Shown here: positions 9,186 through 64,000 of the stretch, piece after piece
How the letters are laid out: each line of letters starts with the position of its first letter
Position numbering within the stretch: position 1 is the first letter of the stretch
Assembly: GCF_014876775.1 (NCBI RefSeq)
Contig: NZ_CP062310.1
Coordinates: 1,465,699 to 1,529,698, forward strand
Length of the DNA stretch: 64,000 nucleotides
Reading direction: 5' to 3'
DNA from: Infirmifilum lucidum
GTDB lineage: Archaea > Thermoproteota > Thermoprotei > Thermofilales > Thermofilaceae
Made by a program: the position numbers and the translations under genes
Notes under the pieces: model-generated
What the model saw: only the letters and a program-made list of their open reading frames with translations
Databases searched by the model: none
Told to the model about the DNA's origin: nothing

Positions 9186-11030
9186 CTACAGTCTTATCCT
9201 CTCCCAGGGCGGCTCGATACTGTCTAGGGTGTCGTGGGTAATAGGCTTTGCTAGCTCCCGCACGTAGTCGGGCATAAGGGGCATGTAGTGCTGGTACCGG
9301 TAGTCGCCTAGTACGATCACAGCCTGGTCTCTTGGCCCCCTGAGAGCCCTCCCGATGGCCTGCGACGCCTTGCGGATAGCGGGGTAGACGTACGCGTATA
9401 GCCTGCCCTTCTCCTCGCCGTACAGTCTCTGGTAGTACTCTATGTAGAGCCTAGTCTTGGTCGTAGGCTTCTCGAAGGGCACGCCGACGAGGAAGACGCA
9501 CATGAGCTCTTCCCCCGGGTAGTCAGCCCCCTCCGCGAACCTGCCGCCCATTGGCGCTACGAGCAGTCCGCTACCCGTCTCCGCGAGAGACTTGAACCTC
9601 TGGAGGGTAGCGTGCGCCTCAACCCCGCTCATCTCGCGCCGCTCGAGGAACACCGTGTAGCCGAGGCTCCTTGCGGTGTCGACCAGGCCTTTCTCCAGGA
9701 GCTTGTTCTGTATGCGGTAGCTGGCCGTGAACACTGCCGTGTTGCGCCTAACCCTGCCGAGCGTCTTGGCTATGGCTCTCACATACTTCTCGGCCATCTC
9801 GTCGCTGAGCTCCTCCCCTCTAGTTGTGAGATCCCTCACCAGGTACACTGACGCGTTTGTCTCGTCATAGGGGCTTGGGACACTTATAGGGTAGTAGTCC
9901 TCTAGACCGACAGTCTCGGCGAAGGCCTCTAGCGGTGTAAGAGTGCCTGACATGAAGATCACTCGTTTGAACGACTTCCAAACTTCAGAAAGTATCTCGC
10001 CTGCGCGCATGTCCCAGATACTCAGGTGTAGCCTGCCATTGTTCCTCTCGACGACTAGTGCTATGCCGTCGATGCCCTCAGCTTCCACGGCAGCCTTGAA
10101 GAAGCTCGCAAAGTGGTATAGGCTCGATTGCGGCCTCTTCCCCTCTCTAAACCTCTTCTCGCGTATTGCCTCGCCGGATCTGAGTGCGTTCTCGAGGGTA
10201 TCTTCGAACCCTTGGGGGAGAAGTTCCTCCGGGTCGAAGACCTCGCTCTCCTCCTCCTGGAGCCCTGAGTACTTCTCCTTCACTCGTTCACGCGTGTATC
10301 TGACCAGTTCGGCGCTGTCGCTGTCCCCGATTTCTAGCGCCTCACTGTAGGCCCTCTCCATCGTCCCCTCTGTTATGGTGTCTCCACCCAGGTTCAGGTT
10401 CTGCAGGTTGTGTGCCTCGTCGACCACGAGTATCGACTCCTTGAAGGGGAACACTGTCCTTATGCTCCAGCTCATCCCCTCGTCCACGACGTAGTTGTAG
10501 CTAAGTGCCACTACGTCAGCCACCTTAAGGAGCTCTCGTTGTAGGAAGTAGGGGCAGACCCCCAGAGCGCTGGCCTTCTCGTATACATACGTGTAGGTGA
10601 GCGCCCCAGCATCGATGAACGGCTGTAGGTTCACGCCCTCCCTAAGCCTCCTATAGTAGGGGCACCTGTTCTTCTCCCTGCTACAGATGTAGGACACGTC
10701 GTCGTAGTCGAGGTTATCGCCAAACCTCCTGGCGAGCAGGCACATGTCCCTCTTCCCCCTGAGGCTCAGGGCAACAAGCTTCACGCCGCTTCTCTCCCTG
10801 AACACCCTGAACTCCTCCACGGGCCTATCGGTCTCATTGCCCGTCCTGACAGTCCACACTACCCGTCCACCGCGCTCCAAGAAGGGCAGGAGAGCGTAGA
10901 TGACGACTGGAGTCTTGCCGAAGCCCGTAGGCGCCTCTAGGACAACGTTCCTCCTCCTCAACTGCTCCCTGATTATCCCCGCGACCTCCAACTGGTGCCT
11001 CCTGGGCTTGTACGGGAACCTTGCCTCCAT
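9186..11030 (-). CDS. xpd: XPD/Rad3-family DNA helicase with Fe-S cluster
   Basis: A 614-residue superfamily 2 5'-to-3' DNA helicase, the archaeal counterpart of the repair helicase XPD. Walker A APTGFGKT lies at about residues 33-40. Four cysteines that bind the 4Fe-4S cluster are at about 97, 116, 123 and 159, DEAH at about 204-207, and the C-terminal motif AIGRALRGPRD (motif VI) near 565-575. All catalytic motifs and the Fe-S cysteines are present and the length is typical of archaeal XPD. A hypothetical gene follows after 9 bases. In archaea XPD's partners in nucleotide excision repair are unclear, so the linked gene is worth attention. Confidence 0.95.
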   Translation of the reverse strand: MEARFPYKPRRHQLEVAGIIREQLRRRNVVLEAPTGFGKTPVVIYALLPFLERGGRVVWTVRTGNETDRPVEEFRVFRERSGVKLVALSLRGKRDMCLLARRFGDNLDYDDVSYICSREKNRCPYYRRLREGVNLQPFIDAGALTYTYVYEKASALGVCPYFLQRELLKVADVVALSYNYVVDEGMSWSIRTVFPFKESILVVDEAHNLQNLNLGGDTITEGTMERAYSEALEIGDSDSAELVRYTRERVKEKYSGLQEEESEVFDPEELLPQGFEDTLENALRSGEAIREKRFREGKRPQSSLYHFASFFKAAVEAEGIDGIALVVERNNGRLHLSIWDMRAGEILSEVWKSFKRVIFMSGTLTPLEAFAETVGLEDYYPISVPSPYDETNASVYLVRDLTTRGEELSDEMAEKYVRAIAKTLGRVRRNTAVFTASYRIQNKLLEKGLVDTARSLGYTVFLERREMSGVEAHATLQRFKSLAETGSGLLVAPMGGRFAEGADYPGEELMCVFLVGVPFEKPTTKTRLYIEYYQRLYGEEKGRLYAYVYPAIRKASQAIGRALRGPRDQAVIVLGDYRYQHYMPLMPDYVRELAKPITHDTLDSIEPPWERIRL

Positions 11031-53411: not shown

Positions 53412-53598
53412 GGCCCACCCCCCATACCGGGAAGCCTGACATGCTACATGTCGCTACTGCTCCAGCGGGCCCCCACCCTGTCCGGGGCTGTCTGCGTGCC
53501 TCCAGAGACCCCTCTTGGAGCTGAGCACGCCATCCCGGGCTCGTCCATCCCCCGCCTCGCCGTCGACCTTTCTATTGTCTCTTGGCTTCTGGGCGGGG

Positions 53599-54844: not shown

Positions 54845-55088
54845 ACACGCGCCACCCCCCGCAGAAAAACCCTCCAACGACTCAGGCCTACCACTCTAGC
54901 CGCCAGGAAACCCAGGGAGACACTCCACGCGCGCACCAACCCGTGGAGCAAACCTGGAACCACCACCGATTACGAGACAACCACTACAAGGCAGGTCTTC
55001 AGCACTCCACCCCGCCAGGCAGGGAGGCCCCGCAGCCCACGGCGGCGCCACGGGGGTTCGTGCCCCTTCCCCAACGGCCGCAGAGCTC

Positions 55089-55727
55089 TTAGACCCTGGT
55101 GTATATCTCCACGCCGTGCCTCCTCGCCGCCTCGAGGGCGGGACCCTCTGCATACGGCGTCACCATTACCAGCCTGTCAGGCTTGCGGCCCGTGGCCTCC
55201 TCGTAGAAGCGCGCCTTCCTGGCGAAGAGCACCACGTCCGAGGGCCTCACGTGGGACGAGACCTCGACTAGCACGACCCTGGCGTCGGAGATAGCCACGT
55301 CTACCTCGACGACAGACGGGTACCCGTACACCACCCCCCTCTCGTCGTAGGCCGTCCACCGCTCGACCCTCGCCCCCAGCTCTTTCTCCAGGATCCCCCT
55401 CAGCCCCTCCCTGAACGCCTCCTCGGCCACAAGCCCCCACCTCGCCCCGAGGGCGTCCAGGCGCCTGTTCACCAGCTGGAAGCCCAGCATCATGTCTTCT
55501 CTTAGCTTGTTCATATCCTCCCTTAGCTTGTTCATGTCTTCCCTGAGCCTGTTCATGTCCTCTACAAGCCTGTTCATGTCCTCCCTGAGCTTCACGAGCT
55601 CCTCCTCGTGCCTGTCCATCCGTTTCAGTATCTCCTCCAGGCCGATCAGCCCCGCGACGGCGTACCTGAACTCCTCGTCCTCCCTGAGCAGCCTCAACAC
55701 CTCCCTCTTGATGTCCACGCCCCCCAC
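55089..55727 (-). CDS. Coiled-coil protein with C-terminal nuclease-like domain (DUF3782-like)
   Basis: A 212-residue protein, related to the gene at 53599: helical start (KREVLRLLREDEEFRYAVAG), a coiled coil of heptads LREDMNK and LREDMNR (about 45-80) and a C-terminal domain with VDVAISDARVVLVEVSSH, which places Asp, Glu and a strand in PD-(D/E)xK order. VEVDVAI and VEVSS may be the D and ExS/K positions. It may cut or bind nucleic acid. Start GTG 55727. No functional partner is adjacent. Confidence 0.8.
   Translation of the reverse strand: MGGVDIKREVLRLLREDEEFRYAVAGLIGLEEILKRMDRHEEELVKLREDMNRLVEDMNRLREDMNKLREDMNKLREDMMLGFQLVNRRLDALGARWGLVAEEAFREGLRGILEKELGARVERWTAYDERGVVYGYPSVVEVDVAISDARVVLVEVSSHVRPSDVVLFARKARFYEEATGRKPDRLVMVTPYAEGPALEAARRHGVEIYTRV
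55491..55595. repeat. Five 21-bp units encoding heptads
   Basis: Consecutive 21-base units begin at 55491, 55512, 55533, 55554 and 55575, each starting CATGTC or CATATC on the plus strand. On the minus strand each encodes one heptad of the form LREDMN(K/R). The units have drifted to differing degrees, unlike the identical 42-bp units of the neighbouring gene. Confidence 0.8.
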
Positions 55728-55794
55728 TCCGCCCCCGCGGTATACTACGCGAAATCAGTATTTAAACCCTCAAGAACCCCGGGAAGGCACGGGC

Positions 55795-56117
55795 CAGCAG
55801 TGAGACTCCTCGACGAGTCCAAGACCGCACTCTTGCCGGGAGTTGTTCTGTTAGAGTACACCTGGGTAATGCTGGAGAAAGCTAAAGCTCCCCCTGACTT
55901 CTTGGCATGGGGAAAATCTCCGAGTACTACTCCGACCCGAGGATACAGTTCTACTGTGAAACAGAAGACGTAAAACCCGCTCTCTTGATCATGAAGAAAG
56001 AGGAGGCACCTCCAAGCACTTTTAACGACTACTAGCCACTGCAAGAAGTGACAGAGCCGAGGTTTTAACGTTCGACGACGGGCCCAGAGAAACCCCCAGG
56101 AAGTACGCAGTGAAGTA
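55795..56117 (+). pseudogene. Decayed PIN-domain (VapC-like) gene
   Basis: Three consecutive pieces in different frames read like the middle and end of a PIN ribonuclease: LLDESKTALLPGVVLLEYTW (about 55803), then SEYYSDPRIQFYCETEDV and PPSTFNDY (55920-56033), and finally LTFDDGPRETPRKYAVK (about 56064-56117). The order matches PIN proteins, whose ends often carry TFDD. The N-terminal catalytic region is missing, and at least one frameshift and stop codons separate the pieces. It fills most of the gap between 55728 and 56226, which otherwise holds no gene. Confidence 0.6.
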
Positions 56118-56226
56118 GCTCTCCAGCGGCCCCCTTAGAGACTTCTACCCCCCTCTAATCAAGAAGGTTTTTATTAGTCAATCAGCCGAGAGTAGACGGA
56201 CGAGCACGTTAAGGGCTTGGTACGGC

Positions 56227-57039
56227 ATGGGCCGAAAACGAGAAGGGGAAAAGCTTGGAGATTGGACGATAGAGCTCTTCGTCGAGAACGCTGAGCTCTA
56301 CCTCCGCTCATTGGAGAAGCGCGTCCCGCAAGCGCCGGTGGAGGTTAAGGCCCTACTAGAGCGGTTAAGCGAACAGGGGTTTGAGGTTAGGAGGGTTCTC
56401 GACCTCAACTGTGGTATCGGCAGGCACTCTATAGAGCTGGCGAGACGTGGAATCGAGGTCTTGGGGACAGACATCTCACCACTATACATCAAAATTGCAA
56501 GGGAGAGAGCCCGGAGCGAAAACGTCCACGACAAGGCACGGTTTCTGGTGGCTGACATGCGTGAAATCGCCCGCACACTCTCTAGAGAAGAAGCATTCGA
56601 CGGCATCATAAACCTCTTCACATCTTTCGGGTACTACGACGACGAAACAAACGATGATATTTTACGCCAGTGCAGAAGGCTCGTACGCGAAGGGGGGTTC
56701 TTCGCGCTAGAAACTGCCAACAAGGACTGGATCGTTAAGAACTTCCTCGAACAGAGCTTCCACTGGGAGGACGACCTACTCCTCCTTGAAGAAAGGGAGT
56801 TCGACCCCTACACTTCCAGAATACACAATACCTGGACCTACCTACAACGGGTAGACGAGAAAACCTACACCCTTAAGGGGCGGATCAAGTTCGACCATAG
56901 AGTATGGAGCCTCAACGAACTCATAGAAATGTTTAGGAGGACAGGGTGGAGCTTCAAGGCCGCCTACCCCGGGCTCAACGAAGAGAAAAACACCCCACTG
57001 ACAGCAGCAAGGAGACTACTAATCATAGCCCAGAGATAA
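56227..57039 (+). CDS. SAM-dependent methyltransferase
   Basis: A 270-residue class I methyltransferase. LDLNCGIGRHSIELA (about residues 59-73) is the SAM-binding motif I and VLGTDIS (about 79-85) the acidic strand 2 motif; DGIINLFTSFGYYDDE gives motif IV. A tail of about 100 residues is strand-rich. The substrate is unknown. Codon use has more A and T than the surrounding genes, a possible sign of transfer. ATG 56227. Confidence 0.88.
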   Translation: MGRKREGEKLGDWTIELFVENAELYLRSLEKRVPQAPVEVKALLERLSEQGFEVRRVLDLNCGIGRHSIELARRGIEVLGTDISPLYIKIARERARSENVHDKARFLVADMREIARTLSREEAFDGIINLFTSFGYYDDETNDDILRQCRRLVREGGFFALETANKDWIVKNFLEQSFHWEDDLLLLEEREFDPYTSRIHNTWTYLQRVDEKTYTLKGRIKFDHRVWSLNELIEMFRRTGWSFKAAYPGLNEEKNTPLTAARRLLIIAQR

Positions 57040-57084
57040 AAAAACCCATAACATCCCAGCCCCAACCAAATACGCATCAGTGGG

Positions 57085-57120
57085 GCTAAATTTTATAAAT
57101 CTCGGTTAAATTTTATAAAT
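57085..57120 (+). promoter_or_regulatory. Tandemly duplicated TATA element
   Basis: A 16-base block differing at one place, GCTAAATTTTATAAAT (57085-57100) and GTTAAATTTTATAAAT (57105-57120), is repeated 20 bases apart just before the ATG at 57126. The first copy is placed for a near-leaderless start of that gene; the second is only about 10 bases upstream and would start transcription inside the coding region. Confidence 0.6.
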
Positions 57121-57125
57121 ACAGT

Positions 57126-57380
57126 ATGCCAAGGTCATGGGATTTGTGGTTTGGGATATTTGTGGTATCCACTCTCCTGGCATTGACGATCAGCTTCCTA
57201 GGCCTCGCCTCGGACGACCCCACCCTAAGCAAAATCTTCTCCTACATCGGGTACGCGCTCCTGATCATAATCGCAATAGCCGCAGGCGTGCTACTTGTGC
57301 TAGGAATGACGTCGGAGGACGAAGGACGCCGGCCCTCTGAGCTCCAAAGCTCAGAGGACGAAACCCGACGTCATTATTAG
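57126..57380 (+). CDS. Small two-helix membrane protein
   Basis: An 84-residue protein with two predicted transmembrane helices (WFGIFVVSTLLALTISFLG at about residues 8-26 and YIGYALLIIIAIAAGVLLVL at about 40-59) and a charged C-terminal tail (SEDEGRRPSELQSSEDETRR). No family recognised. It has a duplicated promoter (57085-57120) and stands alone between the methyltransferase and a stretch without genes up to 57591. Confidence 0.7.
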   Translation: MPRSWDLWFGIFVVSTLLALTISFLGLASDDPTLSKIFSYIGYALLIIIAIAAGVLLVLGMTSEDEGRRPSELQSSEDETRRHY

Positions 57381-57591
57381 CACGCCGCCCCACTGTCCTA
57401 TCCGCGCCGCCCTACACGACGAAAACAGTAAGAATTAAGCCGACAACAAACCTGATCAGACCCATCGACCTATATGGGAGATGCATGCACAGCACAAGGT
57501 TGTTAAAGAAGTACAGCGCCACATTGTATACTTATAAACTTAACACCTCAGGCTTCTCGAGCGGCGTGCCTAAAGCGAGCGCGTAGGGTGC

Positions 57592-58488
57592 TCAGCACGA
57601 TCGGGCCAGCTGAGCCCCTGGGGCGGGGTCGGCGGGAGAGCCCAGCCCTTTGCTGGCCCTCCTGAATAGGAGTAAGAGCCTCAGAAGGAGGAGCACGGCC
57701 TTCAGCCTCACGTACTCGAGTAGGATCATGAAGATAGCCCCCCTCATAGCCCCCTCGGGGTACAGGACGTCCCTGACGCCCCTCTCACTCCTCTCATACC
57801 TGAGGCCTCTTATTATCACTACCGGAACAGCCTCGTCTGTCTGGCCGAAGAGGAGGTTAGCGGCGGCCGCCACGAGGTCGGTCAAGTCGTCCAGCCCGCC
57901 GAACTTGGGCTTCCCGTAGAGATCCCTGGCCCCGAAGTTCCTCGAGACAGGCTGGATCCCCGAGGAGCCTATCGCCACGTCTACAGTGCCGAACTTGTCC
58001 AGCTTCCACTCGGTATCCGCTATCACGACGGCCACGTCCTTGCCCGTGAGCTCCCTCACCCTCGCCCTTATCCTCCTGGCCGACAAGTCGGGATCCTCCG
58101 GCGGGAGGGTGCAGTACCCCTCCGTGGAGTTGGAGAAGTCCAGGCCCGCATCGCTCAGCACCATCCCCCTCACCCTAGTCATGAATATGTACGGATCCTT
58201 CCTCAACAGCTCCAGAGCCGCCCCCTCGTCCCTGGCGTACTCCCTGAACAGGTACCCGTACCTCTCGGCGAGCCCCCTCACCGGGATCACGAAGCTTATC
58301 CCCTCGGAGGCCCTGAGTATCAGCTTCACGGCCCTGGGATCCTTCCCGTACACCCTGGAGAGGAACCTGGCGGCGAGGGAGGGCTTCACGCCTTCCAGCC
58401 TGTAAACCCTGCCCTCGGCCTTCGACACCATCTCGGAAGTCAGCACTATGATCCCGGCCCCCCTCTTTCCCTCTTTTCTAGCGTACAT
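57592..58488 (-). CDS. CofE-like (F420 gamma-glutamyl ligase family) protein, truncated N-terminus
   Basis: A 298-residue protein resembling coenzyme F420-0:gamma-glutamyl ligase. VLTSEMVSKAEGRVYRLEGV, AGLDFSNSTEGYCTLPPEDP, AVVIADTEWKLDKFGTVDVA and VPVVIIRGLRYERSE follow the family order. The usual first strand with a GDD motif is missing, because the region upstream of ATG 58488 does not encode it. The C-terminal 35 residues are hydrophobic and Leu-rich, then Pro-rich. It may be an active relative, a paralogue or decayed; no other F420 gene is in the window. Confidence 0.72.
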   Translation of the reverse strand: MYARKEGKRGAGIIVLTSEMVSKAEGRVYRLEGVKPSLAARFLSRVYGKDPRAVKLILRASEGISFVIPVRGLAERYGYLFREYARDEGAALELLRKDPYIFMTRVRGMVLSDAGLDFSNSTEGYCTLPPEDPDLSARRIRARVRELTGKDVAVVIADTEWKLDKFGTVDVAIGSSGIQPVSRNFGARDLYGKPKFGGLDDLTDLVAAAANLLFGQTDEAVPVVIIRGLRYERSERGVRDVLYPEGAMRGAIFMILLEYVRLKAVLLLLRLLLLFRRASKGLGSPADPAPGAQLARSC

Positions 58489-58569
58489 GCCTACCGGAGT
58501 AGAGGGCCATGGGCGGGCTACTCGCTAGGCCCCCTCCTCGGCATGCTTGCGTGTCCGCCGTGCCCAGTA

Positions 58570-59007
58570 TTAAGGGTTTCTGACCCTTATCTTGATGGCC
58601 CTGGCCTTTGCTATCGCCTCGAGGATTTTCCTCGCCTCCTCGTCCTTCACGGCCGGTATCGCGTCCATTATCGCCGCCCGCAGCTTGTCGTCTACCTCGA
58701 CGGTGAGCGCCCTGAGCCTCGAGACGTACTCCAGCCAGAGCGGGTCTGCCTTGTGGAGGTGCCACTTGTGCTTCACGCCGCCCCCGCCGTGGACGAGGTA
58801 GATGTGCTTGCCCAGGAACATGGCGAAGCTGGTGGCGGCCGCGCCGCACTTGGGGCACGTCAGCGCCACCCTGTCGGCGTCCGCGCCCCTGTACACGCCC
58901 TCTAGCCTCCAGGCCCCTGTCTCCTGGTCGTAGACGTATTTCTCTAGTACGTACTCGCCGCCCTCCTTCCTCAGCTCGAACCTCCAGCCCCTCTTCCTCC
59001 TGGCCAT
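58570..59007 (-). CDS. Zinc-ribbon protein, member of a three-copy local family
   Basis: A 145-residue protein: basic N-terminus (MARRKRGWRFELRKEG), strand-rich part, a CPKCGAAATSFAMFLGKH-type knuckle with following HGGGGVKHKWHLHKADPLW, and a helical tail (RKILEAIAKARAIKIRV). The first cysteine pair has no second pair; conserved His residues may complete the site. A full paralogue is at 62067-62522 and a 3' fragment at 59876-60024. A TAAAATAT element lies about 25 bases upstream of ATG 59007 (leaderless). It is divergent from the small-gene cluster. No known function. Confidence 0.72.
   Translation of the reverse strand: MARRKRGWRFELRKEGGEYVLEKYVYDQETGAWRLEGVYRGADADRVALTCPKCGAAATSFAMFLGKHIYLVHGGGGVKHKWHLHKADPLWLEYVSRLRALTVEVDDKLRAAIMDAIPAVKDEEARKILEAIAKARAIKIRVRNP
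58587..58724. repeat. 138-bp direct repeat, copy 1
   Basis: This stretch inside the zinc-ribbon gene's 3' half is identical base for base to 59887-60024, exactly 1300 bases away in the same orientation. Divergence starts at once beyond both ends. Perfect identity over a coding part suggests recent duplication or gene conversion. Confidence 0.9.
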
Positions 59008-59102
59008 ATGTCAAGTATCCACGGGGTGATATTTTACTCTATTGTCTTGGAAGAAAGAGATATATACCAGTCTGGAAAATAAATCCACGCGGGGTGGTGG
59101 GG

Positions 59103-59258
59103 TTGAGGAAGTACACGAGGGCACTGGCGACAGTCGTAACGGAGGAGCTGTACGCGAAGGTGGACGAGCTGGCGGCCAGGCTCGGCATCACGAAGTCTGA
59201 CTTCGTGCGGATGGCGGTGCAGGAGAAGGTCGCCAGGGAGGAGGGGAAGGCGCAGTGA
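59103..59258 (+). CDS. Ribbon-helix-helix (CopG-like) small DNA-binding protein
   Basis: A 51-residue protein. It reads TRALATVVTEELYAKVDELA then ARLGITKSDFVRMAVQEKVA, a textbook MetJ/Arc/CopG ribbon-helix-helix: a short strand, helix 1, turn and helix 2. TTG 59103 is preceded by GGTGGTGG; GTG 59094 and 59097 are in-frame alternatives. A TATATA element lies at about 59059-59066. It probably represses its own small operon, an arrangement common in archaeal plasmids and viruses. Confidence 0.82.
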   Translation: MRKYTRALATVVTEELYAKVDELAARLGITKSDFVRMAVQEKVAREEGKAQ

Positions 59259-59311
59259 GCACGCCGCGCTGGTTCGCCGATGCCCTGTCGAGGCTCAGCT
59301 CCGAGGCTTGA
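59255..59311 (+). CDS. Very short reading frame overlapping both neighbours
   Basis: GTG 59255 overlaps the stop of the ribbon-helix-helix gene, and the TGA at 59309-59311 overlaps the TTG of the next gene. It would encode STPRWFADALSRLSSEA. The middle resembles the DPLWLEYVSRLRAL part of the zinc-ribbon protein at 58570, so this could be a fragment kept by recombination rather than a functional peptide. Confidence 0.3.
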   Translation: MSTPRWFADALSRLSSEA

Positions 59312-59313
59312 GG

Positions 59314-59535
59314 ATGGAGGGCGAGCTACGTGTCCTCGCCTCGGTGGCCCTCAGGGAGCTGCTCCAGGAGTGCAGGTACGGGGGCAGGATAGTCGTCCCG
59401 GTGGTGTTCAAGGCTAACAAGTACGTCACGCCGGTCACGCTCGCCAGGTACGCCACGAAGGCCCTGTACAATATGGTGCTCGGAACCGAGGCGGCTATAG
59501 GCATGGACTACGTGCTCTACTTCTCGGAGGTGTAA
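59314..59535 (+). CDS. Small protein of unknown function in accessory cluster
   Basis: A 73-residue protein (ATG 59314; TTG 59308 is in-frame upstream). It contains VLASVALRELLQECRYGGRI and YATKALYNMVLGTEAAIGMD, predicted helices separated by strands. No family recognised. Tight overlap with the upstream tiny frame suggests one polycistronic unit beginning with the ribbon-helix-helix gene. Confidence 0.6.
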   Translation: MEGELRVLASVALRELLQECRYGGRIVVPVVFKANKYVTPVTLARYATKALYNMVLGTEAAIGMDYVLYFSEV

Positions 59536-59539
59536 GGAC

Positions 59540-59836
59540 GTGGACGTCGTGGTAAAGCCCCTCAACCTCGGGCCGAGGCCTCACGCGACGTTCAGGGTGT
59601 CGGCCGGCGGCAGGGCGTACACGCTGTACTGGAGCATGCGGAGGGTGACCTACAGGGTCAAGGCGCACTACGTCGTGGTGGAGGAGGAGGGGACGGGGAA
59701 GAGGTACAGGCTGGTCGTCGTCGAGGCGCTGAGGAAGCTGGACGTGGTGTACTTCGCCGGGGACGGCGCCCCGCCGGCGGGGGACGAGGTGGGGAGGGTC
59801 TCAGCGGTGGTGCTGAACGCCCTGAGGGGCGGGTGA
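59540..59836 (+). CDS. Small strand-rich protein of unknown function
   Basis: A 98-residue protein, strand-rich (ATFRVSAGGRAYTLYWSMRR, VTYRVKAHYVVVEEEGTGKR). GTG 59540 follows GGAGGTG by about 8 bases. A 45-base part of this gene reappears in damaged form at about 61898-61942, where it joins the end of the DUF5679-like gene. No known function; typical of accessory plasmid or virus DNA. Confidence 0.6.
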   Translation: MDVVVKPLNLGPRPHATFRVSAGGRAYTLYWSMRRVTYRVKAHYVVVEEEGTGKRYRLVVVEALRKLDVVYFAGDGAPPAGDEVGRVSAVVLNALRGG

Positions 59837-59875
59837 AGGGGGAGAAAAAAATATTTTATTTGTTTTTCCTCTACG

Positions 59876-60024
59876 CTACCCCGCTTTTATCTTGATGGCC
59901 CTGGCCTTTGCTATCGCCTCGAGGATTTTCCTCGCCTCCTCGTCCTTCACGGCCGGTATCGCGTCCATTATCGCCGCCCGCAGCTTGTCGTCTACCTCGA
60001 CGGTGAGCGCCCTGAGCCTCGAGA
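59876..60024 (-). pseudogene. 3' fragment of the zinc-ribbon family gene
   Basis: The minus strand reads SRLRALTVEVDDKLRAAIMD to KILEAIAKARAIKIKAG and stop, matching the C-terminal third of the gene at 58570. The final residues differ (IKIKAG versus IKIRVRNP), so the copy has its own 3' end; the 5' two thirds are absent and are replaced by the plus-strand membrane gene. It lies next to copy 2 of the 138-bp repeat. Confidence 0.7.
59887..60024. repeat. 138-bp direct repeat, copy 2
   Basis: Identical to 58587-58724. At its right end (60024/60025) the sequence changes abruptly to an unrelated membrane protein gene, which has no N-terminal start of its own. This abrupt joint suggests that recombination at the repeat replaced the 5' part of that gene. 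Confidence 0.9.
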
Positions 60025-60052
60025 GCGCATCAGGTATGCCGCGAACCTCTTC

Positions 60053-60519
60053 GTGTTCCTGGTCTCCGTCCTGACCTCGTACGTCATGGCGGTGAACTCC
60101 CAGACGGCCCTCCTCGGGTTACTGGGTATCGCGGCGGCGCTCTATATCTCCAAAACCTTAAAAAGGGGAGGTGCTGGGCGTGGGCCGTGTCGCTGTTCAT
60201 GTTTATCTTCACCGCCTCGTTTGCAATCATGTATGCTTTCGTCGTCGACCCGCTCTACGCCCTGCTCGCAGTAGGGCCTGCCGTCGGGATTGCCTTTCTC
60301 TTAGACCGCGAGTCCCGGGCCTTCTGCGGGGTAATACTCGATTCTGGCGAGAGTGTCGTCTCCCCCCGCCACGCGGCGGGTAACACTGGGATACCACTTG
60401 GTTCTGGCGTGAGTGAAGCCTCGGCAGGGAGGGTTTGCCCTACTTGTGGCCTGCCAGCAACATACATCAACAGCCTAAACAAGTTCTACTGCTTCAACTG
60501 CAAAAAATACGTTGAGTAG
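60053..60519 (+). pseudogene. Membrane plus zinc-ribbon protein, split by frameshift
   Basis: Two open stretches in adjacent frames make one plausible protein. The first has NLFVFLVSVLTSYVMAVN then LLGLLGIAAALYISKTLK (two helices). The second has WAWAVSLFMFIFTASFAIM and YALLAVGPAVGIAFLLDRE (two helices) followed by RVCPTCGLPATYINSLNKFY and CFNCKKYVE (a two-CxxC zinc ribbon). A -1 shift at TTAAAAAGGGG (60158-60168) joins them. A shorter independent gene from GTG 60187 (110 aa) is the alternative. The 5' end is cut by the 138-bp repeat. Confidence 0.6.
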
Positions 60520-60633
60520 GCTCATAAGGGCGGGTATGTGTAAGGAGAATGCTTGATCTATAGCACGGGCGGGCGAAAAAAGGGAGAAGGAGAAATATTA
60601 AAAAGGAAAAAAAGGATTTTTAGGGCGTGTACA

Positions 60634-60807
60634 TCAGCGCCAGCTACTTGGCCTTGTCGGCGTCCTCCCGCGGGCCCTCGCGAGGACTTCGTGCTCGGTC
60701 GAGCCGCAGTTGGGGCAGGGGGTGTTGCCCGCGTATATGTTGCGGCACGCCCTGCACTGCCGCACCTCGACCTCGTAGTACGCGTCCTTCCTCCCCACGC
60801 CGGCCAC
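60634..60807 (-). CDS. Small two-CxxC zinc-ribbon protein
   Basis: A 57-residue protein from GTG 60807. It contains VRQCRACRNIYAGNTPCPNC, a complete zinc ribbon with two cysteine pairs, and an Arg/Pro-rich tail (ARARGRTPTRPSSW). It starts 6 bases after the stop of the gene at 60814, so both are co-translated. Archaeal viruses and plasmids carry many such zinc-ribbon genes; the function may be transcription or RNA binding. Confidence 0.65.
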   Translation of the reverse strand: MAGVGRKDAYYEVEVRQCRACRNIYAGNTPCPNCGSTEHEVLARARGRTPTRPSSWR

Positions 60808-60813
60808 CCACGC

Positions 60814-61329
60814 CTAGACCACGAAGAGTTCTACGTCGTGGCGGCCCCTGAAGATGCCCGCCACTGCCTCCTTCACCTCCTCCGGCACCACGAGCGCCAC
60901 GCCGGCTACCACGCCCCTGCCGTTGGTCAGCCTGGCGAACCCCCTCTTCAACCTGTCGAGCAGGCCCTTAGTCTTCTCTACGTCTATGGCGGGCATGCGG
61001 AATATGGTGAACACCTTCGGCGCGGCGCCCCTCTCTTCCAGCGCGTCGGGGGCGGGCACGCCGTCCACGGCGGGCAACGAGATCAGCCCCGGCGCGCCGC
61101 TTACCCCGAGGTAGTACCTGTCCCCGTCTGTCCAGATGCCGTCCCTGTGCGGGATGACTGTGCCGTCGGCGACCTCCGGCAGCACGACAAACTTGTCGCC
61201 GCGCGCCAGCCCGGCGACCATCTCCTGCTCGAGCGCCCTCCTGATGGCCTCGGCCACCTCCACGTCAGACGTCACGACAACGACGTACCTGCCGTCCCCC
61301 TTGAGGACTCTCTCGACAACCGTTTTCAT
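60814..61329 (-). CDS. Protein of unknown function in accessory cluster
   Basis: A 171-residue soluble protein beginning MKTVVERVLKGDGRYVVVV, with a strand-helix pattern, basic and acidic patches, and APKVFTIFRMPAIDVEKTKG. No family recognised. ATG 61329 is supported by GGTGGGGAG just upstream and a TATATATTATATTGG promoter. It heads an operon with the 57-residue zinc-ribbon protein. Confidence 0.72.
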   Translation of the reverse strand: MKTVVERVLKGDGRYVVVVTSDVEVAEAIRRALEQEMVAGLARGDKFVVLPEVADGTVIPHRDGIWTDGDRYYLGVSGAPGLISLPAVDGVPAPDALEERGAAPKVFTIFRMPAIDVEKTKGLLDRLKRGFARLTNGRGVVAGVALVVPEEVKEAVAGIFRGRHDVELFVV

Positions 61330-61372
61330 CTCCCCACCAATATAATATATATCCAATGGGGTCTAACAAATG

Positions 61373-61745
61373 TTACTGGCGCTGCGCGTCCACTGGCCTT
61401 ACGTGCTTCCTCGCGGTGCCCCTCTCCTGGAGCCTCCCGCGTATCGGGTCTTCCTGCACTCCGAGCCCCCTGGCTGCCTCCGACACCGACATGCATACCT
61501 CGAGGTAGTTGACGGCCTTGTTCATGTTCACGTGCCTCCTCGGCCCGCCGACGTGCCTGCCCTCCACCTTGGCCCGTAGCATGGCCTGCCTGGTTTTCCC
61601 GGATATCAAGTCCCGGCTCCCTTTCCGCGACCCACGCGAAGACCGCCAGGACGGGCTTCCCGGGCGATGAGTCGAGGCTACTCAGGAAGGCCCCCTTCGG
61701 GCTGACGGGTATAACCGGGCCCCCGAGGGCCCGTGCACGTGTCAC
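61373..61745 (-). pseudogene. Serine site-specific recombinase remnant
   Basis: The C-terminal part of a serine recombinase remains. FLSSLDSSPGKPVLAVFAWV then AERE lies in one frame; RDLISGKTRQAMLRAKVEGR followed by the helix-turn-helix MSVSEAARGLGVQ lies in another, joined by a one-base shift near 61610. The catalytic N-terminal domain with the nucleophilic serine is missing, so it cannot be active. Such genes mobilise IS607-type elements or integrated plasmids, which supports a mobile origin for this patch. Confidence 0.72.
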
Positions 61746-61789
61746 GGATAATATACGCCTGCCGCGCCCCTACATGCGTGGTGACGCAG

Positions 61790-61936
61790 GTGTCACAGCC
61801 TAAGGTCACGACGTACTGCGTTAAATGCCGCAAGCATATGGAGGTGAAGAACCCGCAGCTCATGATACTCAAGAACGGCAGGCAGGCGTACAAGGGCGGG
61901 GTACGCGCTGTACTGGAGCGGTGTCCTACAGGGTGA
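61790..61936 (+). CDS. DUF5679-like small cysteine protein, 3' end replaced
   Basis: The frame from GTG 61790 reads TTYCVKCRKHMEVKNPQLMI then LKNGRQAYKGG, the hallmark of the small zinc-binding DUF5679 proteins seen in archaea and their mobile elements. Members normally end with a second CxxC pair. Here, after YKGG, the DNA changes to a stretch that closely matches part of the gene at 59540, and the frame ends at TGA 61934-61936 without that pair. Translation is supported by GGTGA ahead of GTG. The second half was probably lost by recombination. Confidence 0.65.
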   Translation: MSQPKVTTYCVKCRKHMEVKNPQLMILKNGRQAYKGGVRAVLERCPTG

Positions 61937-62066
61937 AGGCCCTGTCCTCTGACTGTAGCACCTTAACGAATTGCTCGGTCATATACGTCTCTAATACCGG
62001 GGTTGTATTTTAACCTATTGCCGTGGAGCAAAGCTTCAAATACCGCTCACGCCATAATCAACCACG

Positions 62067-62522
62067 ATGCAGGGAGAGGGGCAGCCGAGGCCCCGGCTCA
62101 GCAGGGGCAGGAAGAGCTGGAAGCGTGTCCTCAAGAAGGACGGCGGCGAGTACGTACTGGAGAAGTACGTCTTCGACCACTACAAGAGGGTGTGGAGGCT
62201 CGTCGGCACGGTGAGGGGCGAGGACGCGATACTAAACGAGATCAGGTGCCCCAGGTGCGGCGCCCTGCCCACCACGTACAGCCTCGGCGGCGGAAGAGCG
62301 ATAATCCTCAAACACTTCGACAAGGGGGAGAAGCACTCGTGGGAGGTCAACTACGGCCCCGACCCCGTCTGGCTCGAGTTCGTCCGCTACAAGCTCGGGG
62401 CACACAGGCTAGACGGCGAGGCGAAGGCCGCGCTCGCCGCAGCCCTCGAGAAGGCCGGCCACCAAGGCGCGGCCGCGCTCGTGAAGGGCGCCGAGAAAGT
62501 CACCGTGAAGCTGATCCCCTGA
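62067..62522 (+). CDS. Zinc-ribbon protein, paralogue of 58570-59007
   Basis: A 151-residue protein: basic start (RPRLSRGRKSWKRVLKKDGG), EYVLEKYVFDHYKRVWRL, the cysteine pair CPRCGALPTTYSLGGG, KHFDKGEKHSWEVNYGPDPV and a helical Ala-rich tail (GEAKAALAAALEKAGHQGAA). All elements align in order with the gene at 58570, so the two are paralogues. ATG 62067 lies about 27 bases after a TTCAAATAC element (leaderless). Function unknown; the basic N-terminus and zinc knuckle suit nucleic-acid binding. Confidence 0.75.
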   Translation: MQGEGQPRPRLSRGRKSWKRVLKKDGGEYVLEKYVFDHYKRVWRLVGTVRGEDAILNEIRCPRCGALPTTYSLGGGRAIILKHFDKGEKHSWEVNYGPDPVWLEFVRYKLGAHRLDGEAKAALAAALEKAGHQGAAALVKGAEKVTVKLIP

Positions 62523-62542
62523 AAAACCTCTTTTTCCCCTGT

Positions 62543-62599
62543 ATTTTGTTCACGTTTACGAAATATTCCGAGAGGAGAAAACGTAAACGTTTACAAAAT
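62543..62599. repeat. 18-bp inverted repeat around a 21-base spacer
   Basis: ATTTTGTTCACGTTTACG (62543-62560) and CGTAAACGTTTACAAAAT (62582-62599) are reverse complements with two mismatches. The region is A/T-rich and follows the zinc-ribbon paralogue by 20 bases. It could be an operator, a plasmid iteron pair, a transposon-end remnant or a terminator stem. The stretch from 62600 to 62885 holds no supported gene; a short VITVRVPQEL near 62714 hints at a broken ribbon-helix-helix gene. Confidence 0.6.
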
Positions 62600-62885
62600 G
62601 CTCACCCCGCACCAGGGTCGGGGCACCGCCATGCGCTTACATAAACGTTATCCTAATTACCCTGCCACGCGGCTATGCTTACATACCGCACAAGAACAAG
62701 CTCGGGAAGGCCGCGTCATCACCGTGAGAGTCCCCCAGGAGCTACAGGGGGCCTCCGAGGGACGAAAGGGCGGATCTGGAGCCGTCGAGGAAGGATCCGT
62801 ACATATTCACGTATAGGGCGGGCCCCCTGACACTAGACTCGGCGGTGGAGAGAACGGGTTCAATGTATGGGGGTTAAAAGTTGAA

Positions 62886-63456
62886 CTAGGGCGGCCCTGC
62901 CGGCCCCTTCTCCTCGCACTTCCTCTTCCTCGCGAGGCCCACCATGATGGAGGCGTAGAGGTGGAGCTTCCAGGCCTCGTAGTACTGCCCGTACTCCTCT
63001 ACGGCTTTTCCCGCCAGGTTCCTCAGCTCGTACGCCCCGTCGAGTGTTAGCTCGTCCTTCTCCAGGAGCGCCTCCAGCCTCTCGACCTCCTCCCCCGTGA
63101 AGGGGTTCGCCACGGCCAGCTCCACCACCCTGCGGGCCCCCCTTGACTAGATCCCCGGCCTTCTCGTCCAGCACCCCCTCCGACACCAAGTACTCGACGA
63201 AGGACTCCCGGTAGCCGGAGAAAGCCCTCCCAAGCCTAACTACCCTGCCCTCGACGCCCCCTATCCTCTGGCCAAGCCCCGCCTCCACCTCATTCATCCT
63301 CTGGTTCAGCCCCGCCTACAGAGAGCCCACCCTCTTCTCGAGGGCTCCCACCCTCATCTCCAGCCTCGCAAGCCTCCTCCCCAGCCAGTAGGCGAACCCG
63401 GCCAGCGACCCAGCGACAGAGGCCGTGGAGCTGAGCAGCAAGAGCACGGGCTCCAT
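62886..63456 (-). pseudogene. Broken paralogue of the membrane coiled-coil protein at 32565
   Basis: From ATG 63456 the frame reads MEPVLLLLSSTASVAG then FAYWLGRRLARLEMRVGALE, an N-terminal membrane helix and coiled coil as in the gene at 32565. It meets an in-frame TAG at 63316-63318, resumes, and shifts frame near a six-C run (63137-63142), after which RRVVELAVANPFTGEEVERL and LHLYASIMVGLARKRKCEEK align with the other gene's C-terminal domain. Removing one base from the run restores the frame; the TAG would still remain. Confidence 0.75.
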
Positions 63457-63553
63457 CACTCCTCTATCCCGCACAGGCTTATAAATCAGCTTTCACCCCC
63501 CACGTTCCACTAGCCCGCTCCCCCGCCCCCGAACGCCATGGACATGCCCCGCA

Positions 63554-64000
63554 CTAGCGGAGCAGCCTCTCGACCCACTTCCTGACCCTGTACTCGCTGC
63601 CCTCCCTCTTGACGATCCCGTTCTCTTCGAAGGCCTGGAGGATTTGGGGAGGGAGCTCGTGTAGCCTTCTGGCGGCGTGCCTGTAGCCGGGGTCGAGGGT
63701 GAGGGGCAGTATCGGGAGCTCCACGTGGCCCCTCGTGTACTCGTGGACGTAGTAGGCCCTGTTCGCGCCTATGAGGGGGGCCAGCGCGTAGAGCGCGGAG
63801 CCCTCGGGCTTGAAGCCCCCCGTCAGGTTCAGGTACACCAGCAACCCCCTCTTCCTGGCCTCCTCCGCCAGCCCGGCCGCCTCGTCCAGCAGGTTGTACA
63901 GGCCCTCGTCGAAGTCGAGGCCCAGCTGGGGAACCCTGCGGATCTCGGCCTCCACGCCGCTGTCCCTCAGGTACTTCGCTATCACCGACGCGCAGAAGAA
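63554..64000 (-). CDS. CRISPR-associated APE2256-family CARF protein (partial, right edge)
   Basis: At least 148 codons, open through the right edge. YLNLTGGFKPEGSALYALAP then LIGANRAYYVHE is the signature of the APE2256 (Cas_APE2256) family, CARF proteins that include ring nucleases cutting cyclic tetra-adenylate in Sulfolobus. A winged-helix-like tail (LQAFEENGIVKREGSEYRVR) ends it. The family occurs in type III CRISPR-Cas loci. GTG 63985 is possible but the open frame upstream suggests a longer protein starting outside the window. Confidence 0.75.
   Translation of the reverse strand, partial: FFCASVIAKYLRDSGVEAEIRRVPQLGLDFDEGLYNLLDEAAGLAEEARKRGLLVYLNLTGGFKPEGSALYALAPLIGANRAYYVHEYTRGHVELPILPLTLDPGYRHAARRLHELPPQILQAFEENGIVKREGSEYRVRKWVERLLR

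Follow-up and report, generated by a model that had tools for sequence, protein, structure and literature searches.

The DNA analysed here, hereafter the window, is a stretch of 64,000 nucleotides (G000:C1:1465699-1529698) from the genome of a thermophilic relative of Thermofilum pendens, itself placed in Thermofilum by the grouping used; this host genome, G000, consists of the single contig C1 of 1,625,846 bases. Five loci bearing CxxC pairs lie within 4 kb of each other, at positions 58570-62522 of the window. A sequence-only reading had singled them out, and all five were recovered, in frames carrying CPKC, CPTC with CFNC, CRAC with CPNC, CVKC and CPRC. Their density, claimed to exceed that of the rest of the window, was borne out by the counts: CxxC pairs are carried by nine of the 71 called genes, five of them inside the patch, and a cluster of five in any 4-kb bin was obtained in 0.56% of label shuffles among genes (permutation p ~0.006). 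The five loci do not form one family, as two of them, p145 and p151, are paralogues, whereas the remaining three loci are gene fragments. Of the five knuckles, three resemble ordinary archaeal ribbon types, as would be expected of a chance clustering of ordinary, unrelated small zinc proteins, but the permutation result and the exact repeats, fusions and paralogy which tie the parts together make such an accident very improbable.

Six intact frames, namely p145, a ribbon-helix-helix (RHH) gene, p75, p98, p180 and p151, have strong host-like coding scores, and the patch is therefore not mere debris. The RHH gene, already recognised from the sequence, is real: it lies at 59094-59258(+), encodes a CopG-like protein of 54 amino acids (PF01402, E 4e-7) and is divergently oriented to p145. 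It is followed on the same strand by the orphans p75 (59308-59535) and p98 (59540-59836), both with host-like codon usage, while the orphan p180 occupies 60814-61356(-); its structure model was unusable (pLDDT 47). Coding scores are low for a 57-aa frame at 60634-60807 and for a DUF5679 copy at 61733-61936, and negative for the frames 60553-61512(+), 61326-61745(-), 62598-62816(+) and 62860-63297(-). Tiny overlapping frames, as had been reported, are thus present, but several of them are not genes. No RNA families were found in 55000-64000. The RHH gene and the ribbon fragments belong to broad families, whereas for p145, p75, p98, p180 and p151 the class genomes that were searched yielded no homologue; taken together, and not each orphan against each collection, the orphans were absent from 80 other genomes of the class, IMG/VR, phages and plasmids.

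The outermost CxxC loci are the two orphan zinc proteins. p145 (58570-59007, minus strand, CPKC) has a beta-rich N-terminus, a helical C-terminus and the motif C51-x2-C54-x18-H73-x6-H80, and p151 (62067-62522, plus strand, CPRC) is its inverted paralogue with the same Cys/His spacing. The two are 38% identical, with C51, C54, H73 and H80 invariant (C-x2-C-x18-H-x6-H), and their dN/dS of ~0.72-0.84 at a dS of 0.6-0.84, estimated with the simple NG86 method, indicates fast evolution. The p145 model combines a beta-rich half with a long helix (pLDDT 83, pTM 0.70), and a fold search with it returned nothing at E<=0.001. Relatives of p145/p151 were found neither in 60 other genomes around the host, nor in GTDB contigs by peptide pattern, nor in IMG/VR, phages or plasmids. 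A borderline match (E 0.009) lies inside a 667-aa protein and was judged unrelated.

A likeness is seen to ORF131 of the Pyrobaculum spherical virus PSV (PDB 2X5C, PF22415), which is counted among zinc ribbons (PMC5906684) and shares with the p145/p151 family a CPRCGA knuckle, a beta-hairpin, a histidine before a turn, a second histidine and a helical tail. Pairwise hhalign between ORF131 and the p145 family gave P 3.4e-5 and a probability of 72, with 28% identity over 54 columns; the similarity is below family thresholds. The PF22415 profile scored 12.9 bits (E 0.11) and did not reach its curated cut-off of 27, and the fold matches listed for the p145 model did not include 2X5C. p145 and p151 may bind nucleic acid through the zinc knuckle and the helical tail, and the divergent RHH protein would repress the p145/RHH promoter region.

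The remaining knuckles belong to broken and copied gene pieces. An exact direct repeat of 138 bp covers the 3' part of p145 (58587-58724) and recurs at 59887-60024 as the severed 3' end of a p145-like gene, which is joined at 60024 to a copy of a gene for a 320-aa zinc-ribbon membrane protein. This copy (60023-60519, plus strand) is a 5'-truncated, frameshifted pseudogene. The gene that had been placed at 60053 is a wrong frame (coding score -22); the ribbon, with CPTC and CFNC, sits in the frame 60187-60519(+), and the two frames are halves of the one pseudogene. The intact 320-aa gene lies at G000:C1:1366866-1367828 on the minus strand, 158 kb upstream of the patch. The 320-aa protein is itself a fusion: it ends, over 35-40 residues, in a C-terminal ribbon that is common in archaea and is present on a 148-aa protein of genome G010, among others, while the N-terminal 120 residues resemble ~180-aa proteins that the genus encodes separately.

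The identity between the pseudogene and the intact gene is 57-82% up to 60247 and 91-100% over 60248-60517. This abrupt step at 60248, from ~65% to 96%, is attributed either to a gene-conversion tract or to a later, second round of copying. The locus of the intact gene, hereafter the second locus, shares 60023-60802 with the patch; within this stretch, 60396-60802 is 94% identical to G000:C1:1367966-1368376 and comprises the 3' end of the zinc-ribbon gene and the 57-aa frame (60634-60807, minus strand). The latter, with CRAC and CPNC, shares 94% DNA identity with its copy at the second locus. The nine non-synonymous and two synonymous codon differences between the copies (dN 0.075, dS 0.082, dN/dS ~0.9) indicate that the frame is probably not under selection.

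The second locus has a layout like that of the patch, in which the 138-bp repeat is paired with a 1300-bp unit: an exact direct repeat of 167 bp (L019:8824-8990 and 10211-10377) flanks a unit of 1387 bp. The 138-bp and 167-bp repeats were considered as transposon ends and rejected, being gene 3' ends that share no terminus and show no target duplication. A solo CRISPR repeat with one mismatch (L019:9925-9949(-), equal to G000:C1:1367924-1367948) stands directly upstream of the 320-aa gene, and after it come a pseudo-spacer of 44 nt and 8 nt of another repeat; it could have been carried there by rearrangement or be a regulatory mini-array of the CreA type. Further solo sequences resembling the CRISPR repeat occur outside arrays at 53568-53592(-) of the window and at L018:4787(-), with three and four mismatches respectively, and both start with CCAGAAG.

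Further right in the patch lies the remnant of a serine recombinase of the resolvase/invertase type (61373-61745, minus strand; phrog_125, E 0.003), which had been correctly spotted from the sequence. It matches the C-terminal half, with 46% identity to a relative in genome G010; the catalytic N-terminal part is absent and the remainder is frameshifted. Next to it, the CVKC frame at 61733-61936(+) copies the DUF5679 core gene (PF18930, E 4e-9), whose full version is found at G000:C1:1254372 and also in relatives. The copy scores 37 bits against a cut-off of 27, yet it has only one of the two CxxC pairs of the core gene, the second having been lost at the join, at about 61898, to a p98-like paralogue scrap (61898-61940).

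The disturbed zone continues past 62522, with a 34-codon scrap of a CofE gene at 62743-62844(+), recognised over 61 bp at 87% identity and inverted relative to the gene immediately left of the patch. That gene (57592-58488, minus strand) encodes a CofE-like F420-0:gamma-glutamyl ligase (PF01996, E 3e-49; TIGR01916 just below the cut-off). The 138-bp exact repeat, the inverted CofE scrap and the identity step together show segmental duplication, deletion and gene conversion. CofE and p145 on the left are mirrored on the right by p151 and the CofE scrap, and p98 has a scrap of its own, an arrangement suggestive of an inverted duplication of a small module that later decayed. The modular reshuffling of zinc-ribbon genes that had been proposed is thus visible in base-level repeats, joins of gene fragments and a conversion step, but its products are mostly broken pieces and not the new functional binding proteins which had been envisaged.

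To the right of the patch, a CARF protein of the Cas_APE2256 type (Csm6/ring-nuclease-like; 63554-63985, minus strand, 257 aa in the full genome) marks the start of a type III CRISPR-Cas neighbourhood with CARF proteins, an array of 45 repeats, type III RAMPs, Cas10, Cas4, Cas1 and a second array of ~109 repeats; a HerA-like ATPase gene is also read as one of these neighbours. This zone was considered as part of an element and rejected, being CRISPR-Cas. The proximity of the CARF gene, which starts ~1 kb to the right, would fit p145/p151 and their neighbours being accessory genes of the adjacent type III system. However, the patch proteins gave no PADLOC match to a known type III CRISPR accessory family, gene orientations are mixed, and in T. 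pendens the CARF gene stands in a different context without the patch genes, which leaves such a role unlikely.

On the left, the cofE-like gene and a methyltransferase gene are absent from the six other genomes of the genus (for CofE, by a family search), and therefore the patch lies inside an accessory zone with no definable empty site. The 80-aa frame at 62886-63128(-) has family members at G000:C1:351152 and 405645 as well as in other genomes of the genus. At 55490-55615 of the window, 21-bp tandem units in a DUF3782/PD-(D/E)XK gene encode a heptad coiled coil; the family of this gene has many copies across the genus.

The sequence-only reading had proposed that the patch derives from an integrated plasmid or virus. 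In its most explicit form, the patch would be the remnant of one element of an undescribed family, with p145/p151, RHH, p75, p98 and p180 as its genes and the serine recombinase as its integrase. The recombinase remnant and the adjacency of the orphan genes to the RHH gene speak for it. Against it, no att repeats and no tRNA were found at the patch, nor an integrase gene beyond the recombinase fragment, and the exact 138-bp repeat pair is internal to genes. Searches of Pfam, PHROGs, phages, plasmids and IMG/VR returned no capsid, packaging, ATPase, replication or other hallmark gene, while DNA and protein searches of plasmids and phages and scans of IMG/VR returned no relatives of the patch; the comparison of the small proteins with phage, plasmid and viral-contig collections, which had been suggested as a check, likewise gave no match. 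Host-like codon usage and the derivation of several pieces from host genes argue in the same direction. Conservation of the gene order in relatives, which had been named as the observation that would speak against such an origin, was not seen.

Two weak viral hints also speak for such an origin. One is the CPRCGA...H pattern shared with PSV ORF131, and the other comes from the host's own CRISPR arrays, in which one of 151 spacers (G000:C1:1556362) encodes YVYDRLHGVWRFE, similar to YVYDQETGAWRLE of p145. Against the two-sequence family profile this spacer scored 40.5, a value reached by one of 3,464 shuffled sets, with a reversed-control peak of 35; against single family members the observed score was 47 and that of the reversed-spacer control 48. 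The test was prompted by a noticed 13-nt match and is thus partly post hoc. Since the YVYD...WR motif recurs, by pattern search, in unrelated viral proteins, and given the reversed control of 48, the match is kept as a hint only. Separately, the spacers G000:C1:1533943, 1554070 and 1555691 have in common a hairpin-like sequence of 16-22 nt (around CTCTCCTCCACGAGGAGAGG), which looks as though variants of a single repeated hairpin had been their source.

Overall, an integrated-element origin is plausible, in view of the recombinase remnant, the orphans, the accessory zone beside CRISPR-Cas and the two viral hints, but it is not demonstrated, and descent of the whole patch from one such element appears doubtful. 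We favour, with a probability of about 0.6, a patch of lineage-specific "dark matter" that has been rearranged within an accessory zone bordering a type III CRISPR-Cas locus. The patch probably has mobile ancestry, towards which one recombinase fragment and the two weak hints (the spacer peptide and the ORF131 similarity) faintly point, and is not a recognisable virus or plasmid.

According to the favoured reading of a rearranged patch, its orphans would go back to at least one mobile element that has since decayed. These fast-evolving genes (p145/p151, p98, p75, p180 and the RHH regulator) would have been duplicated in direct and inverted orientation, and pieces of host zinc-ribbon genes (the 320-aa membrane protein and DUF5679) would have been copied in, or kept while the rest was deleted. 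Ectopic gene conversion with the second locus would have overwritten part of the patch. The duplications, the joins, the identity step, the frameshift and the loss of the catalytic half of the recombinase are directly seen, while which locus served as the template in each copying event is inferred, as no outgroup shows the ancestral order.

Dark matter islands, as described by Makarova et al. 2014 (PMC4158269), gather small and rare genes that evolve fast and commonly stem from mobile elements or defence systems; they are defined by at least 4/5 contiguous genes being uncharacterised and either ORFans or present in at most five archaeal genomes. The patch resembles these archaeal islands in its clustering of small, narrowly distributed, fast-evolving, uncharacterised genes, and differs from others in that the joins left by duplication, fusion and conversion are legible at base level and in that zinc-knuckle pieces are over-represented. 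It is probably best filed as one example of these already described islands, with unusually legible scrambling.

A bolder and rather speculative possibility is that an undescribed Thermofilales virus or plasmid carries a fast-evolving family of zinc ribbons of which p145 and p151 are the first members to be seen, that the host spacer targets a relative, and that copies beside the CRISPR locus serve as raw material for new host genes. If the mobile ancestry were confirmed, the patch would point to an unknown group of Thermofilales viruses or plasmids. As it stands, it is mainly one more dissected case of a known class, and a readable one of how archaea cut, copy and fuse small zinc-binding genes beside CRISPR-Cas.
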